From an uncultured Pelagibacteraceae bacterium (lineage in GTDB: Bacteria; Pseudomonadota; Alphaproteobacteria; Pelagibacterales; Pelagibacteraceae): 64,000 bases of DNA. Where the stretch lies: positions 62,001-126,000 of the forward strand of contig CACHSP010000002.1 of assembly GCA_902582605.1 (NCBI GenBank). The letters run 5' to 3'. The notes under the pieces were generated by a model, which worked only from the letters and a program-made list of their open reading frames with translations, did not search any database and was not told the DNA's origin. Of the stretch, positions 9,132-62,515 are shown one piece after another. How positions within the stretch are numbered: the stretch's first letter is position 1; each line of letters opens with the position of its first letter. Both the position numbers and the translations under genes were made by a program.

Positions 9132-10119
9132 AAATAGCTTTCTTGAATCGATTGGAAATACTCCTTTAATTAAATTAAAAGCAGCCTCTGAAATCACGGG
9201 ATGTCATATTTTCGGTAAAGCGGAATATCTTAATCCCGGTGGATCAGTTAAAGATAGAGCTGCTCTTGCTTTAATAAAAGATGCACAAGAAAAGAAATTA
9301 ATTTCAGAGGGGGGAATTGTAGTTGAAGGCACTGCTGGTAATACTGGAATTGGTTTATGTCTTTTAGGAAATTCTTTAGGTTATAAAACAATTATTGTGA
9401 TGAATGACAATCAAACACAAGAAAAAAAAGATACTTTAAAAAATATTGGAGCAGATCTTAGATTGGTACCACCCAAACCATATAAAGATGATGGCAATTA
9501 TGTAAAAGTTGCAGGTCGTCTTGCCGAAGAATTAAAAAGTACTAATAACAATGGTGTAGTTTGGGCAAATCAATTTGATAACACTGCCAATGCAAAAGGT
9601 CACTATGAAACCACGGGACCAGAAATCTGGGAACAAACTGATGGAAAGGTTGATGGTTTTGTTTGTGCTTCTGGAACAGGTGGAACTATAGGTGGTGTAA
9701 GTAAATTTTTAAAAGAAAAAAATAAAAATGTTAAAATTTATTTATCTGATCCAACAGGTTCTGCTCTTTATAATTATATTACGAATGGTGAATTAAAAGC
9801 TGAAGGAGGATCAATTACTGAGGGAATTGGCTCAAGTAGAGTAACTAAAAATTTTGCTGAGGCAAAAATTGATGGTGCTTATTCAATTAGTGATGAGGAG
9901 TCCTTACCAATACTTTATGATTTAATTCAAAATGAGGGTTTAAGTTTAGGAACCAGTTGTGGTGTAAATATTGCAGGTGCAATTAGACTTGGAAAAGAAC
10001 TTGGCCCAGGAAAAACTATTGTAACTATTCTTTGTGATAAGTCTGACAAATACAACTCAAAGATGTTTAATAAATCTTTTTTAAAGGAAAAAAACCTTCC
10101 AATACCCAGCTGGCTATAA
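9118..10119 (+). CDS. cysK: cysteine synthase A
   Basis: ORF track starts at 8992; likely start is ATG 9118 ([21 protein letters not shown]), overlapping cysE by 14 nt; PLP fold motifs [29 protein letters not shown]. Confidence 0.92.
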
Positions 10120-10134
10120 TATCGCATATCAGCC

Positions 10135-10158
10135 ATGTAACAAAACAGTTACATTTTT
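10135..10158 (+). terminator. probable intrinsic terminator after cysK
   Basis: ATGTAAC-AAAACA-GTTACAT (7-bp perfect stem) followed by TTTT. Confidence 0.6.
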
Positions 10159-10181
10159 AGAATAATATTAATTAACATTGA

Positions 10182-10562
10182 ATGGTTATGAATAAATATA
10201 TAGCAGTAATACTATCATTATTAATTTTTACTTCCGCACATGCAGGTATGAGTAAAGATGACAAATCTAAAGCCTGGGATTGTATTGGAATTTATATGGC
10301 AAATTACTTTTTACCATCTGGTGAAAAATTTGAATATGGCATGAAAGAAAAATCTATTTCAACAGTAAAAGTATTAAAAACGTATGCTCTTGAAATTGGT
10401 ATTCCAGAAAAAGAATGGGATGAAGGAGTAAATAAAGCAGTTGATAAGCATTATGGCTCCAAATACGACCAAGCTAAAACTGAAAAATGTCATACATTTG
10501 TTGAAGCTTTAGTTCCGAATGGAGCTGAACGAGTAAAAAAAGTAGTTCAAACTTTATATTAA
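10182..10562 (+). CDS. small exported hypothetical protein
   Basis: ORF 126 aa; signal peptide MNKYIAVILSLLIFTSAHA. Confidence 0.6.
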   Translation: MVMNKYIAVILSLLIFTSAHAGMSKDDKSKAWDCIGIYMANYFLPSGEKFEYGMKEKSISTVKVLKTYALEIGIPEKEWDEGVNKAVDKHYGSKYDQAKTEKCHTFVEALVPNGAERVKKVVQTLY

Positions 10563-10579
10563 TAAAAAAGGAGAAAAAA

Positions 10580-10870
10580 ATGGAAAAAGAAATGTTAGTA
10601 CTTCTTAAGCTTAAAGAGGGTAAATTAGAAACTTTCATGGGTTGGATGCAATCAGATGAAGGGATGGGTGTTAGAAAAAGCGTTGCCTATCCAGAAAAAA
10701 CTGTTGGAGCCATGATTCCAGATAAAAGTGGGATGTTATTTAAAGTGAATGTTCATAATGAAGCTGGAATGAAAGAATTTGTAACTGGGAATAATCCTAC
10801 CGCGAAGGCTATTTACGCAGAATGTGTAGAGAGTGCTAAATTATATGAACTATCTGAAGTAAATTTATAA
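10580..10870 (+). CDS. small hypothetical protein, possible ferredoxin-like/dimeric alpha-beta-barrel fold
   Basis: ORF 96 aa with AAGGAG SD. Confidence 0.6.
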   Translation: MEKEMLVLLKLKEGKLETFMGWMQSDEGMGVRKSVAYPEKTVGAMIPDKSGMLFKVNVHNEAGMKEFVTGNNPTAKAIYAECVESAKLYELSEVNL

Positions 10871-10879
10871 GGAGTATAA

Positions 10880-11086
10880 ATGAAAAAAATAATGTTAACG
10901 CTTTGTTTGATCTTATTTATGAGCTCAGCATATGCAGGTTCATGTCCGATGTTAGCTAAAAATATTGATGAAAAAATTAAAAAAGCTCAAGAACTTAAAG
11001 ATCAAGGTATGGATGCCCATAATAATGGTGATCATGCTAAGTCTGAAAAACTTTTAAATGAAGCTCTTGCTTTATTTAAAAGCTAA
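10880..11086 (+). CDS. small exported hypothetical protein
   Basis: ORF 68 aa; signal peptide; helical TPR-like tail; AAGGAG SD. Confidence 0.6.
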   Translation: MKKIMLTLCLILFMSSAYAGSCPMLAKNIDEKIKKAQELKDQGMDAHNNGDHAKSEKLLNEALALFKS

Positions 11087-11101
11087 ACACAAAGGAGAAA
11101 A

Positions 11102-11392
11102 ATGAAAAACTATATGGTAACTCACACTTTCAAATCTAAAGAAATGAAAGAGAAATTTAGCGAAACAGTAGCCTCAATGAAAATGGAGGATATTATTAAA
11201 TCAATGACCAGTGATAAAGCTGCGTGTCAAATGACTTGGAATACGCCAGCTGATACAATGCAAATGTTTTGCTGGTGGAAAGGAAATAGTGAGGAAGATA
11301 TAATTAATCAACTAGGTCAAATGAATGACTTCTTTGAACCTCACAAATTTACTGAGTGCACTGATCAAGTGATGGACTATAACGCAAAATAG
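11102..11392 (+). CDS. small hypothetical protein
   Basis: ORF 96 aa with AAAGGAG SD. Confidence 0.6.
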   Translation: MKNYMVTHTFKSKEMKEKFSETVASMKMEDIIKSMTSDKAACQMTWNTPADTMQMFCWWKGNSEEDIINQLGQMNDFFEPHKFTECTDQVMDYNAK

Positions 11393-11401
11393 GGATAAAT
11401 A

Positions 11402-11716
11402 ATGAAAGCAATCTACACAAGAACCATCGGAGTTTATGATGACAAGCTTGGTGAGGCAATGGAAATTTCCAAAGGTTTAGCTGAAGTAAGAAAAAAATAT
11501 TATCCTGATCATGAAGTTTATTTTTCTTTTCAAATTGGTGGAAATCCAAGAACAGTTAGAGAAACTCTTGTAGGAGAACAGTTTACAGACAAAGCATTTG
11601 AAAATGATCAAAACATGTCTGCAGATCCTAAATTTATAGAACTTCAAAAAAAAATGAAGGGTGTTTTTAAAGAAGGTACAATACAAGATGAAATGAGAAT
11701 GGTCTTTAACGACTAG
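11402..11716 (+). CDS. small hypothetical protein, possible ferredoxin-like/dimeric alpha-beta-barrel fold
   Basis: ORF 104 aa, collinear with neighbours. Confidence 0.6.
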   Translation: MKAIYTRTIGVYDDKLGEAMEISKGLAEVRKKYYPDHEVYFSFQIGGNPRTVRETLVGEQFTDKAFENDQNMSADPKFIELQKKMKGVFKEGTIQDEMRMVFND

Positions 11717-11724
11717 GAGATAAA

Positions 11725-12141
11725 ATGATAGAAAAATTTAACGGAATATTTTATTTAGCAGTTTTTATAATCCATTTTATAGGGTTTGCTTATTATGGTT
11801 TTAGATGCGTTTTCCAGACAAAGTCCTTCTTAGATAAATATGGTATCGATGATACTGGTGCAGGAATGGTTAGATTTTTTGGATCAATATTTCTTGGTTC
11901 AGTAGTTATGGCTATTTATGTTGGTTTTATAAGACCTAATGGTTTAGAGACAACATGGGCATTCTTTAACTTGATCTTTTTGCAAAACTTATCTGCATTT
12001 ATTGTTGGCTTTTATAATACAAAAATTAATAAACTTGGACACACAGACAAAACATCGGATGAGGGAATTTATGCTCCATTAGTGTTGACAATACTTAGTG
12101 CTGTGATGATTTATGGTTTTAGTGACAAAATCTATATTTAA
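11725..12141 (+). CDS. small integral membrane protein
   Basis: ORF 138 aa, about four hydrophobic segments. Confidence 0.6.
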   Translation: MIEKFNGIFYLAVFIIHFIGFAYYGFRCVFQTKSFLDKYGIDDTGAGMVRFFGSIFLGSVVMAIYVGFIRPNGLETTWAFFNLIFLQNLSAFIVGFYNTKINKLGHTDKTSDEGIYAPLVLTILSAVMIYGFSDKIYI

Positions 12142-12158
12142 CAACAAAGGAGTTTAAG

Positions 12159-12479
12159 ATGTCTATGTTAGAGAAATATACCAATGCAATTGATAAAAAA
12201 GATGAGTCAACTATGAATGAACTTTTGCATGATGACTTTAAATTCACAATGCACAAATCAGGAAACACCATAGGTAAAGCTGATGTTATAAAGTGGGCAA
12301 TGAGCGGTGATATAAACCAAGATAAAGCTAGAGTAGTCTATGAAAATGATCAAATTGGAGTTCACCATTCAATAGTTACATTTAATGACGGAAATGTTGA
12401 GGCGGTAATGGCAGTTTATAAATACAAAGATGGAAAAATTATAAGTTTAGAGACTGGCGCCACTCCAATGCCAAAATAG
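12159..12479 (+). CDS. NTF2-like/SnoaL-like protein
   Basis: ORF 106 aa; YTNAIDKKDESTMNELLHDDFKFTMHKSG pattern typical of NTF2-like folds. Confidence 0.6.
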   Translation: MSMLEKYTNAIDKKDESTMNELLHDDFKFTMHKSGNTIGKADVIKWAMSGDINQDKARVVYENDQIGVHHSIVTFNDGNVEAVMAVYKYKDGKIISLETGATPMPK

Positions 12480-12698
12480 GTGAGTCAATTACTCTTTATT
12501 TGTATTGCTATAACTGCACTTGATATTTTTTTAATCATCTACGCGTTGACTATCCCACTTTATCCAAAAAAATGGCAAAAAGAGGTAAATAAAAAATACA
12601 AAAATGAGACAGCTACTGGAGTAACAATAATTTTTGTAACGATGGCAGCTTGTTTTTTATGGGTAATTTATTTTTATTTCTTAATTTTTGATTTATAA
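12480..12698 (+). CDS. small membrane protein
   Basis: ORF 72 aa, GTG start directly after the upstream stop. Confidence 0.5.
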   Translation: MSQLLFICIAITALDIFLIIYALTIPLYPKKWQKEVNKKYKNETATGVTIIFVTMAACFLWVIYFYFLIFDL

Positions 12699-12704
12699 TT
12701 TTCT

Positions 12705-12926
12705 ATGTTTCCAAAAAAATATTCAAAATTAATATTCATATTTTTTATGGGCCTCGGCATGAGCTTGATCATGACACTTATAATTACATATATCAATACA
12801 GGTTATGATGAACTTTATTATAAGAGATTTTTTAAAGCTTGGTCAGTAAGCTTACCTGTTGCATTAGTTGCCACAACAATTGTAGCTCCTATAGTTGAAA
12901 AATTTGTAGATAAAATTACCAAATAA
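12705..12926 (+). CDS. DUF2798-like small membrane protein
   Basis: ORF 73 aa, two TM segments (FFMGLGMSLIMTLIITYIN...FFKAWSVSLPVALVATTIVAPIVEK). Confidence 0.6.
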   Translation: MFPKKYSKLIFIFFMGLGMSLIMTLIITYINTGYDELYYKRFFKAWSVSLPVALVATTIVAPIVEKFVDKITK

Positions 12927-12942
12927 TAATACTCTTTATATT

Positions 12943-13278
12943 GTGAGTAATATAATTGCCTACATACTTCTTATACTTGCAGTAATTTTGGGGACTGCAG
13001 CAAATGGTTTTGCTAAAGGAGCTAATGGTTTTACATTATTATTACCAAGCTTATTAACAGCAATAACAATAGTTGCTTGTATGTTTACATTATCAATTGT
13101 TATGAAAACTATTCCTGTAGGTATTACTTACGCCTCATTTGCAGGTCTATGTATTATCGCTACAACAATTGTTGGAGTATATAAATTTAATCAAATGCCA
13201 GACGTTTACACTATTGTTGGTTTAACTTTAATTATTTCAGGAGTGTTAATAGTTAATCTTCTTGGTAAAACAAATTAA
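12943..13278 (+). CDS. SMR family transporter subunit (pair member 1)
   Basis: ORF 111 aa, GTG start; four TM, IPVGITYASFAGLCIIATTIVGVYKFNQMP...SGVLIVNLLGKT. Confidence 0.82.
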   Translation: MSNIIAYILLILAVILGTAANGFAKGANGFTLLLPSLLTAITIVACMFTLSIVMKTIPVGITYASFAGLCIIATTIVGVYKFNQMPDVYTIVGLTLIISGVLIVNLLGKTN

Positions 13279-13282
13279 ATTT

Positions 13283-13618
13283 ATGACTAATTTATCTGGA
13301 TATATATTTCTTCTACTGGCAATTATCTTAGGCATTACTTCAAATGGTTTTTTAAAATCAACTAATGGATTTACCAATATTGGCCCAACAATTTTTTGTG
13401 CAATATCAATAATCGCTTGTATTTTTTGTTTATCAAAAGCAATGAATATCATTCCTGTAGGTTTCACTTATGCTACGTACGGAGGACTAACAATTACTGC
13501 AGTAACTTTATTTGGTGTGTTTAAATATAATCAAATACCAAATCTCTATGGTATTATTGGGATAGCTCTAATTGTTGTTGGTGTAATTCTTTTAAATACT
13601 CTTGGTAAAACTACTTAG
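13283..13618 (+). CDS. SMR family transporter subunit (pair member 2)
   Basis: ORF track starts at 13262; likely start ATG 13283 (MTNLSGYIFLLL); IPVGFTYATYGGLTITAVTLFGVFKYNQIPN. Confidence 0.82.
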   Translation: MTNLSGYIFLLLAIILGITSNGFLKSTNGFTNIGPTIFCAISIIACIFCLSKAMNIIPVGFTYATYGGLTITAVTLFGVFKYNQIPNLYGIIGIALIVVGVILLNTLGKTT

Positions 13619-14417
13619 TTATTGGTCTAAGTATTTTTAAAATTTTATTATGAATATTATTGTTAACTGAAGCAACAATATTTCCGCCTTTAACTGCATC
13701 TGTATTTTTCCATGTACTAACAACTCCACCAGCTGCTTTTATAATTGGTATTAAAGGATGAATATCCCAAATTTTATTTCCACATTGAATAACTACATCA
13801 ACTTTACCTTCTGCAAGATGTGAGTAACTAAGAGCATCTGCACAAGGAAATTGCATTAGTTTTAAAATTTTGGGAATCTTTTTTTGTTTATTTAAAGATA
13901 GCATGCCATGAAAAGCTGCGGACATTTTTATATTTTTGAATAAGATTTTTTTATTAACTTTTATTTTTCTTTTTTTTCTTTGATCCACAACATATGCAAC
14001 TTTATCTGACGCGTTATAATAATATTTTTTAAGAACAGGATAATTTGCTAGTCCAATTACAGGGTTCCCTTTATAATTCAAAGAAATTAAGTTACTCCAA
14101 GTAGGATTACCAATTACATAAGATCTGGTTCCATCGATTGGATCAATAACCCAGGTAAAATCACTTTTGGTTTTCTTTTTGCCAAACTCCTCGCCTATGA
14201 CTTGATGATCAGGAAACCTTTTTCCTATCTCTTTCCTGATAAATTTTTCAAAAGCTTTATCTGATGTTGTAACAGGATCGAATCCCTTGCCTCTTAATTT
14301 GTTAGAGACTTTAAAAGTTCTATTGAGCTTAGAGTAATAAAACTTAGTAAGTTTTCTAGCTAAGCTATCAACAAACTTAGAATACCTTTTAAAATCTGAT
14401 GAATTTAATTTTGACAC
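13611..14417 (-). CDS. inositol monophosphatase family (histidinol-phosphatase-like)
   Basis: ORF 268 aa; GEEFGKKK, WVIDPIDGTRSYVIG, WDIHPLIPIIKAAGG. Confidence 0.85.
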   Translation of the reverse strand: MSKLNSSDFKRYSKFVDSLARKLTKFYYSKLNRTFKVSNKLRGKGFDPVTTSDKAFEKFIRKEIGKRFPDHQVIGEEFGKKKTKSDFTWVIDPIDGTRSYVIGNPTWSNLISLNYKGNPVIGLANYPVLKKYYYNASDKVAYVVDQRKKRKIKVNKKILFKNIKMSAAFHGMLSLNKQKKIPKILKLMQFPCADALSYSHLAEGKVDVVIQCGNKIWDIHPLIPIIKAAGGVVSTWKNTDAVKGGNIVASVNNNIHNKILKILRPITK

Positions 14418-15765: not shown

Positions 15766-15860
15766 AATGAAACAATATAGATATTAAAACTCAATTCAAT
15801 TCTTAATTTTCTATTTTTAAGTGAAATTTTTTTAAGATGTGGGAAGACTAATAAATAGTT

Positions 15861-15919
15861 AGGTTGTATTCAAGAAATATATTTAATTAATTTGCAAATA
15901 AATATCTTGAATACAACCT
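15861..15919. repeat. 15-bp perfect inverted repeat
   Basis: AGGTTGTATTCAAGA (15861-15875) / TCTTGAATACAACCT (15905-15919). Confidence 0.9.
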
Positions 15920-15941
15920 TGCTGGAATTTAACTTCTAATT

Positions 15942-60511: not shown

Positions 60512-62515
60512 TTAATCAATACCTAGGTGTTTTTTTCTTTTTTCAACCCATGATCTAATCAGGTTATCAAATATAAGAGCTATAAAAGCTACACAAATAC
60601 CAAGTGTTAACCCAATCCCAGCACCTTTTTTATCTGATAGTGCTTTTAATATATATTGTCCTAAATCTTCAGTACCAATGAAAGCTCCAATAATTACCAT
60701 GAATAAAGCAAATACAATTGTTTGATTTATACCAAGCATCATGTGAGGAAAAGCTAAAGGAAATTCTATCTTTGTTAACCTTTGAAATTTATTAACACCA
60801 GACATGGTTGCAGCATCGTGTAAACCAGCAGGAACACTTCTCAATCCCTCAATGGTGTATCTAGTAGCAGGTATTGTTGCATAAACTATAACAGCTATTA
60901 AAACAGATGTATCCGTAATACCAAATAACATCATCACTGGAATAAGATAAACAAATGATGGGAATGTTTGAAAAATATCACATACTCCTAACATGAAATT
61001 AGCAGAGCGTTTATTTTGAAAACATAATGTTCCAACTGTAAATCCAATAGTACAAGATACAATTACTCCAAATGTTGCCATATAAGTCGTTACTAAAGCC
61101 CTATCCCACCAAGGACTTAAGGCAATAAATAGTGTCAATCCACAAACAACTAAAGCTGAACGAATTCCACCAATTAGATATCCCGCACCAACAACCAAAA
61201 CTATAGTTGCTACAGCTGGCATCCTTAAATATAAAGCCCTCATTGGTTGAAGCACCTCTTGAATGAGCCATGTATTAAATGCTTTAATATAAACAAAAAA
61301 AGTATCAAAAATCCAATCAACCCCTTTATTCCAAAAATCAGCAGTTGATATTCCTTTATTATGTGGAACTTCAAATAGATAATTAAAACTACCTTTAAAT
61401 AAAAAGGTTCCAATGTAAGCCAGTACTATTCCAACAATTACTGTTGCTGCAAAAAATAAAATATTTTTATTTCTTTGAAAGAATGTCAGATTACCAAAAT
61501 AATCTGTTTGTTTATTAGCCCAAGCTAATGACATTTTATCTAATAAAATCGCAATTAAGCTAATACACAAGCCTGCTTCTAGTGCTAATCCTATATTTAA
61601 CTGATTTAGCGCCAATAGCAGATTAAATCCTAAACCTTTTGCACCAATAAAAGCTGAAATTACTGCCATGGAAAAACACACCATAATGACTTGGTTAACA
61701 CCAATTAAAATGTCTCTTCTTGCAGTTGGAATTAAAACTTTAAACATTAATTGCCAATTATTACATCCACTCATTCTACCAGCTTCAATTACTTCTGGAG
61801 GTACTGCTCTTAAGCCTAATATGGTTAGTAATATCATTGGTGGTATAGCGACAACCATGGTGATTATTACTGCAGCATGATCACCAACTCCAAAAAGAAC
61901 TAAAGCAGGAACCAGTACCGCATATTGCGGCATAGTCTGCATCACCAATAATATTGGATAAAGAGCTTTCTCGACACGTTTACTTTTAAATGCTGCTATT
62001 CCTAAGCCCAACCCAAAAATAAACGACAAGGGTGCCGCGACTAGTATAAATGAAAGAGTTTGCATAGATGGTTTCCATTGACCAAATATTGAAATATAAA
62101 TCATCGTTAAACCAGCAAACAATGCTAGACCTTTCCCGCTAACTTTATATGAAAGGATTGCTGCACCTGCTGCTACAATAGTCCATGGTAATCCTGGAAG
62201 TTCAGCCCAAGGATTTTTATCGATCCAATCCCAACTACTAAATGCCACTATAGTTTCAAGACCACCTAATAAAACTTCTCTTATTAACTGTATTAAGAAG
62301 GTCATAAACGCTGTTAAATTTCTACTTATTTGTAAAACTATAGGACGACTTTTAAACTCTTGTGTATCTTCATTCCAAACCTCAATTGGCATCCAATCAT
62401 TCATTAAAAAAAATAAAGAGTCGTTTATCCAAATAGGTAGCCAGCCTAGTAATGGAGGTAACCGCCAAAACACATCAAAGGCATAATATCTTACCTCTTT
62501 CCCTAAAAAACACAT
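60512..62515 (-). CDS. ABC transporter permease, duplicated ProW-type, TmoW-like (main part; frame-split at N-terminus)
   Basis: ORF 667 aa with two permease domains (TMPQYAVLVPALVLFGVGDHAAVI; QTFPSFVYLIPVMMLFGITDTSVLI). Confidence 0.85.
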   Translation of the reverse strand: MCFLGKEVRYYAFDVFWRLPPLLGWLPIWINDSLFFLMNDWMPIEVWNEDTQEFKSRPIVLQISRNLTAFMTFLIQLIREVLLGGLETIVAFSSWDWIDKNPWAELPGLPWTIVAAGAAILSYKVSGKGLALFAGLTMIYISIFGQWKPSMQTLSFILVAAPLSFIFGLGLGIAAFKSKRVEKALYPILLVMQTMPQYAVLVPALVLFGVGDHAAVIITMVVAIPPMILLTILGLRAVPPEVIEAGRMSGCNNWQLMFKVLIPTARRDILIGVNQVIMVCFSMAVISAFIGAKGLGFNLLLALNQLNIGLALEAGLCISLIAILLDKMSLAWANKQTDYFGNLTFFQRNKNILFFAATVIVGIVLAYIGTFLFKGSFNYLFEVPHNKGISTADFWNKGVDWIFDTFFVYIKAFNTWLIQEVLQPMRALYLRMPAVATIVLVVGAGYLIGGIRSALVVCGLTLFIALSPWWDRALVTTYMATFGVIVSCTIGFTVGTLCFQNKRSANFMLGVCDIFQTFPSFVYLIPVMMLFGITDTSVLIAVIVYATIPATRYTIEGLRSVPAGLHDAATMSGVNKFQRLTKIEFPLAFPHMMLGINQTIVFALFMVIIGAFIGTEDLGQYILKALSDKKGAGIGLTLGICVAFIALIFDNLIRSWVEKRKKHLGID

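Follow-up and report, generated by a model that had tools for sequence, protein, structure and literature searches.

The window analysed here, a stretch of 64,000 nucleotides from an uncultured Pelagibacteraceae bacterium (GenBank contig CACHSP010000002.1, forward-strand positions 62,001 to 126,000), carries nine consecutive plus-strand ORFs between cysK and two genes of the SMR family. According to the ORF listing, these genes, designated A to I, occupy 10182-12926, encode 68-138 aa each and are separated by gaps of 0-17 nt (Table 1). An earlier sequence-only reading of this DNA had placed nine short genes here, and all of them are present, closely spaced and with widespread homologues. Every ORF is under purifying selection at the codon level (median dN/dS 0.06-0.24); for this reason, and because homologues occur in many genomes, we regard A to I as real genes. 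We are confident of the anatomy of the locus as a variable row of small genes between cysK and the SMR/IMP-like genes. Outside the array, a hairpin at 15854-15926 gave sub-threshold Rfam matches to two miRNA families, and is probably a chance hit or a terminator hairpin.

Table 1. Features of the cysK-downstream locus, in window coordinates.
Feature	Position	Strand	Basis or remark
cysK, left anchor	9151..10119 (start approximate)	+	
Conserved upstream element, GCATATC-N5-TGTAACAAAACAGTTACA	10124..10153	+	TGT-N12-ACA dyad at 10136-10153
Putative -10 box TAATAT, 9 nt past the dyad	10163..10168	+	inferred from the TANNNT offset
A: exported, with two invariant Cys; likely start 10188	10182..10562	+	no Pfam family
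B: 96 aa, modelled as an ABM-like dimeric alpha/beta barrel	10580..10870	+	pLDDT 96; strong SD
C: 68 aa, exported, weakly TPR-like	10880..11086	+	signal-like N terminus
D: 96 aa, soluble, invariant Cys42 and Cys57	11102..11392	+	
E: 104 aa, modelled as a NIPSNAP-like dimeric alpha/beta barrel	11402..11716	+	pLDDT 89
F: 138 aa membrane protein without known family	11725..12141	+	
G: SnoaL_2/NTF2-like protein	12159..12479	+	Pfam 31.1 bits (cut-off 27)
H: membrane protein of 72 aa; starts with GTG and lacks an SD	12480..12698	+	
I: DUF2798 membrane protein	12705..12926	+	Pfam 71 bits
SMR-family protein 1, helix 1 without acidic residue	12943..13278	+	Pfam 53.5 bits
SMR-family protein 2, 52% identical to protein 1, helix 1 without acidic residue	13283..13618	+	
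Inositol-monophosphatase-like gene (IMP), right anchor	13611..14417	-	

The products fall into exported, soluble and membrane proteins. The N termini of A and C look like signal sequences, in agreement with the exported proteins that had been assigned to 10182 and 10880, and A also carries two invariant cysteines. The three small membrane proteins of the sequence-only reading correspond to F, H and I by inspection, and I is further identified as DUF2798 by Pfam. Its suggestion that several soluble products adopt small alpha-beta or NTF2-like folds held in part: G is SnoaL/NTF2-like by Pfam, while B and E are predicted to be dimeric alpha/beta barrels and not NTF2 folds. Structural models, computed as single chains, are the basis for giving B and E a common fold; in them E reaches TM scores of 0.71-0.77 to NIPSNAP structures and B only 0.5-0.63 to ABM-type structures, with five matches at E below 0.001. 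In this resemblance to ABM and NIPSNAP proteins they parallel the DUF1330, GYD and ABM cassettes of relatives, which are supported by Pfam; unlike those named barrel families, B and E have no Pfam match. Comparison of the B profile with the D and E profiles gave no match, and we therefore make no claim that the barrel families descend from a common ancestor. Against solved structures, neither the profiles of A, B, D, E and F nor the single cassette proteins produced a credible match; we discounted the FICD matches that protein E gave at E=0.01. In addition to these products, the cassettes of relatives encode DUF1330, GYD, ABM, SnoaL, cupin, glyoxalase, DSBA and TPR proteins. Folds of this kind mostly handle small molecules, often without a cofactor.

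The two SMR-family genes behind the row had been taken for a terminal transporter. They resemble SMR exporters in scoring above the cut-off for Pfam PF00893, in their length of about 110 aa and in their tandem arrangement. Unlike SMR exporters, the pair lacks the defining Glu14, and Trp63 as well, in all 128 SMR-family sequences examined, and 126 of the 128 have no acidic residue anywhere in residues 1-26. Since Glu14 is missing and helix 1 offers no acidic residue, drug/proton antiport is unlikely: these proteins are probably not proton-coupled drug exporters, and a terminal transporter of the drug type is not supported. A half-size DMT-type carrier or a flippase would be our guess. The tandem pair at 12943-13618, conserved without Glu14 and Trp63 in 128 relatives, points to a non-canonical SMR subfamily.

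Translation signals differ among the nine genes. Counting as a strong Shine-Dalgarno sequence (SD) at least 4 nt of the TAAGGAGGT core, we found one ahead of B, C, D, F and G and a weak one (GGGA) ahead of E; none was found upstream of A, H or I, and the GTG of H directly abuts the preceding stop codon. A ribosome binding site for each gene, as had been supposed, is thus not present, with strong sites at five of nine genes. This usage is higher than the local background, 7 of 51 other genes in the window. Among relatives, a strong SD accompanies 84-100% of the copies of B, C, D, F, G, SnoaL127, cupinA and exp155 and 77% of the copies of E, and only 0-10% of those of H, I, SMR, DSBA and TPRexp. 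In relatives the start codon lies most often 34 nt past the upstream element described below, a distance that leads to 10188 here and suggests that A probably begins there and not at 10182. Two in-frame ATGs are found at 10182-10190, and the second is the start used in relatives; these have GAGGGG where the window reads GAATGG, so that the first ATG seems to have arisen through a recent alteration of the SD.

To place the row in a wider context, the cysK-downstream region was taken from most members of the genus having it, and 80 further loci with a close relative of B were collected from named Pelagibacteraceae single-cell and metagenome-assembled genomes. Genes were called and clustered by our own script, and the two locus sets partly overlap, some contigs being identical. 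The cysK locus yielded 94 arrays of at least three genes, from Pelagibacter-like genomes and including some duplicates; they hold 3-12 genes in 56 architectures, a variation in content that speaks against a fixed operon. B, G, A, D, DUF1330, F, I and E are the most frequent members, and the flanks, cysE-cysK on one side and IMP-TauD on the other, are unchanged in most arrays. Across the 94 arrays, the majority order of a gene pair is kept in 2702 of 2849 cases (95%). Some genomes have larger enzymes inserted at the same array position (loci L082, L084, L098, L102, L107, L108 and L110), namely FMN-dependent oxidoreductase, enolase-family and glutathione-reductase-like proteins.

The same families also occur together elsewhere. 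In other SAR11, the series A-DUF1330-B-(D)-F-y2-GYD stands away from cysK, behind an enoyl-CoA-hydratase-like gene, and it is also found behind a TRAP transporter and a dehydrogenase. In a different alphaproteobacterial family, one genome (G150) has a compact B-cupin-E-G operon between thyX-like and mazG-like genes, and another genome (G379) has a B-cupin-G operon. Apart from the home genome, these two are the only members of a 289-genome class sample with B, and G150 is the only one with E; E was not found in a 299-genome phylum sample, again excepting the home genome, and among 121 relatives it is present in 20, all in the home genus. Given this joint recurrence and the rarity of B in the class sample and of E in both samples, independent scatter of B, E and G is judged very unlikely from their distribution. 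F (11725-12141 in the window; loci L120-L125) is a singleton in several small-genome alphaproteobacteria of other families, with one tandem pair. The co-occurrence check that the sequence-only reading had proposed, with independent scatter of the genes as its refutation, thus found scatter for the most part absent, with F alone widely a singleton. Its view of the genes as a functional module and not random hypotheticals gains support from the conserved order, the recurrence of the set and the single upstream element shared by the arrays.

Could the row nevertheless be an ordinary flexible island, in which unrelated accessory genes without a common pathway gather at an insertion-tolerant spot behind cysK? 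The larger, unrelated genes that some genomes also carry at this spot and the occurrence of F as a singleton in other families would fit such an island. It would not lead one to expect an order this consistent, nor the joint recurrence of the same families in at least two other places and in another family; the common upstream element, the unusually high SD usage and the predominance of small single-domain proteins argue in the same direction. We consider the island unlikely.

The upstream element has the consensus GCATA(C/T)C-n-TGT-N12-ACA-N9-TANNNT and stands ahead of the first array gene, be it A, D, B, SnoaL127 or cupinB. In the window it reads GCATATCAGCCATGTAACAAAACAGTTACA, between cysK and gene A, and at up to 3 mismatches this is the sole match, where 0.01 would be expected by chance. 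A relaxed pattern (GCATAYC-N0-8-TGYAAY-N8-WACAT) matched once in the home genome and 24 times in 121 genomes, 20 of the 24 directly after cysK; the reversed control pattern had no match in the same search. In the collected loci, a similar pattern matched 78 times, always on the plus strand; 77 of the matches immediately precede an array gene. In 84 of 115 unique instances, the dyad has TANNNT exactly 9 nt downstream of it. A sigma-70 scan of the region did no better than shuffles, and no terminator was found. We infer a promoter combined with an operator, in which the TGT-N12-ACA dyad would be followed 9 nt on by a -10 box and no -35 box would be used. An operon with a -10 box and no -35 box would probably depend on an activator, and any cassette placed behind the element would be expressed. 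The element is dispensable in some places, since none was found ahead of the G150 or G379 operon. A further conserved block, TTGTAGACA, stands in front of the GCATACC element in loci L174-L194 and is confined to the SAR11 loci away from cysK.

A different reading takes the element as merely the intrinsic terminator of cysK and leaves the array to weak, scattered promoters. Many instances do contain a 7-bp AT-rich inverted repeat followed by TTTTT, and paired changes from TGTAAC/GTTACA to TGTAAT/ATTACA are seen; this terminator-like part may have a second role at the end of cysK. However, GCATACC and the TGT-N12-ACA spacing recur before arrays that lie behind unrelated genes: at the non-cysK SAR11 loci the element is TTGCATACC-TGTAATTAAATTTTAACAT, in which the inner dyad is unpaired and TGT-N12-ACA is kept. 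Together with the fixed distance of TANNNT, this makes a terminator and nothing else distinctly improbable.

Gene content changes one gene at a time. Between otherwise near-identical arrays, single genes are replaced by deep alleles or by another family, as in genomes G045 and G043, where A is 98% and D 99% identical and B between them 46%, or in S160 and S163 (99/58/100). Among pairs whose cysK is at least 93% identical, identity falls below 70% in 35% of the comparisons for D, 50% for E, 45% for F and 37% for DUF1330, and the distributions are bimodal for several array families; these pair counts are non-independent, and some loci are identical contigs from two collections. The upstream controls cysE, glx and msrB fall below 70% in none of these pairs, and IMP and TauD in 6-8%. 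The amino-acid-exporter-like gene y1, also upstream, does so in 38% of pairs and goes down to 61% at the lowest, so that rapid evolution by itself can lead to low identity in some genes. Read at the DNA level, six swap pairs change in similarity at or near gene borders (stop, ribosome binding site or start), and in one of them similarity resumes exactly at the ribosome binding site of the next gene, AAAAAAGGAGTAAAAATG. Half-similar, chimera-like genes number 16, of which 13 are TPRexp, against 973 with low identity along the whole gene (again in non-independent pairs).

We propose to read the locus as a replacement operon, in which one common upstream element governs a row of self-contained small-gene cassettes that varies in content; we put the probability of this reading at roughly 0.55. 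Cassettes would be swapped by homologous recombination through conserved neighbours and through intergenic and ribosome-binding-site sequence, and not by an integrase. Most products would be single-domain ligand-handling proteins with exported and membrane partners, the predicted folds being dimeric alpha/beta barrels, SnoaL/NTF2 and cupins, with DSBA, glyoxalase and ABM types in other strains. The job we favour for them, though tentatively and with the odds somewhat against it, is the processing or detoxification of a changing set of small reactive organics. We are more doubtful still that the locus represents a portable, promoter-tagged cassette operon that works without an integrase, defined by a fixed element, a near-fixed slot order, one-at-a-time swaps at gene borders and a strong ribosome binding site of its own for most genes.

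SAR11 bacteria are among the most abundant cell groups in the ocean and have a small, conserved genome. If such a portable cassette operon exists, these streamlined cells could re-tool one small-molecule pathway without genome growth. Keeping the slot order and one switch while trading single small genes would amount to a finer-grained source of diversity than the islands described so far, and at least 15 mostly unnamed small-protein families would be grouped into one testable unit. The fast turnover of alleles and the modular content also resemble defence islands, but a role as a fast-changing defence or counter-phage island is highly improbable: all nine proteins gave no match in PADLOC or PHROG, no relative of B was found in viral contigs, and those families in the row that are known are of enzyme-like or ligand-binding type.

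Several known systems invite comparison. In integrons, too, each exchangeable cassette holds a single small ORF, and a promoter-like element common to all stands in front, but an integron-like array built by site-specific recombination is hardly credible here, as there is no recurrent repeat between genes, the order is near-constant, and no integrase was recognised in the collected loci. Within SAR11, the hypervariable regions HVR1-HVR4 have been described, and the cysK small-gene locus is not among them (PMC2217521). Replacement flexible genomic islands are also known, those described being swapped whole and coding for surface structures (PMC4033161). In the literature searched, no description of the operon was found, and only flanking genes appear in studies of strain HTCC1062, where SAR11_0785 is tagged DUF952, SAR11_0786 qacH and SAR11_0791 a ring-cleaving dioxygenase (PMC2704228, PMC2864753). 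By gene names, an indirect mapping, the corresponding HTCC1062 locus would lie near SAR11_0785-0791, outside the listed hypervariable regions. The cysK locus shares with hypervariable regions and replacement islands its constant flanks, the different content between those flanks in close relatives, the apparent lack of an integrase signature in the collected loci and an exchange most easily explained by homologous recombination. It differs from them in that no whole block is exchanged: single small genes differ between near-identical neighbours, within a near-constant order behind one regulatory element, and what the locus carries is small soluble proteins instead of surface glycans. What we file as new relative to replacement islands is therefore exchange at the level of the gene, together with a regulatory tag of its own.
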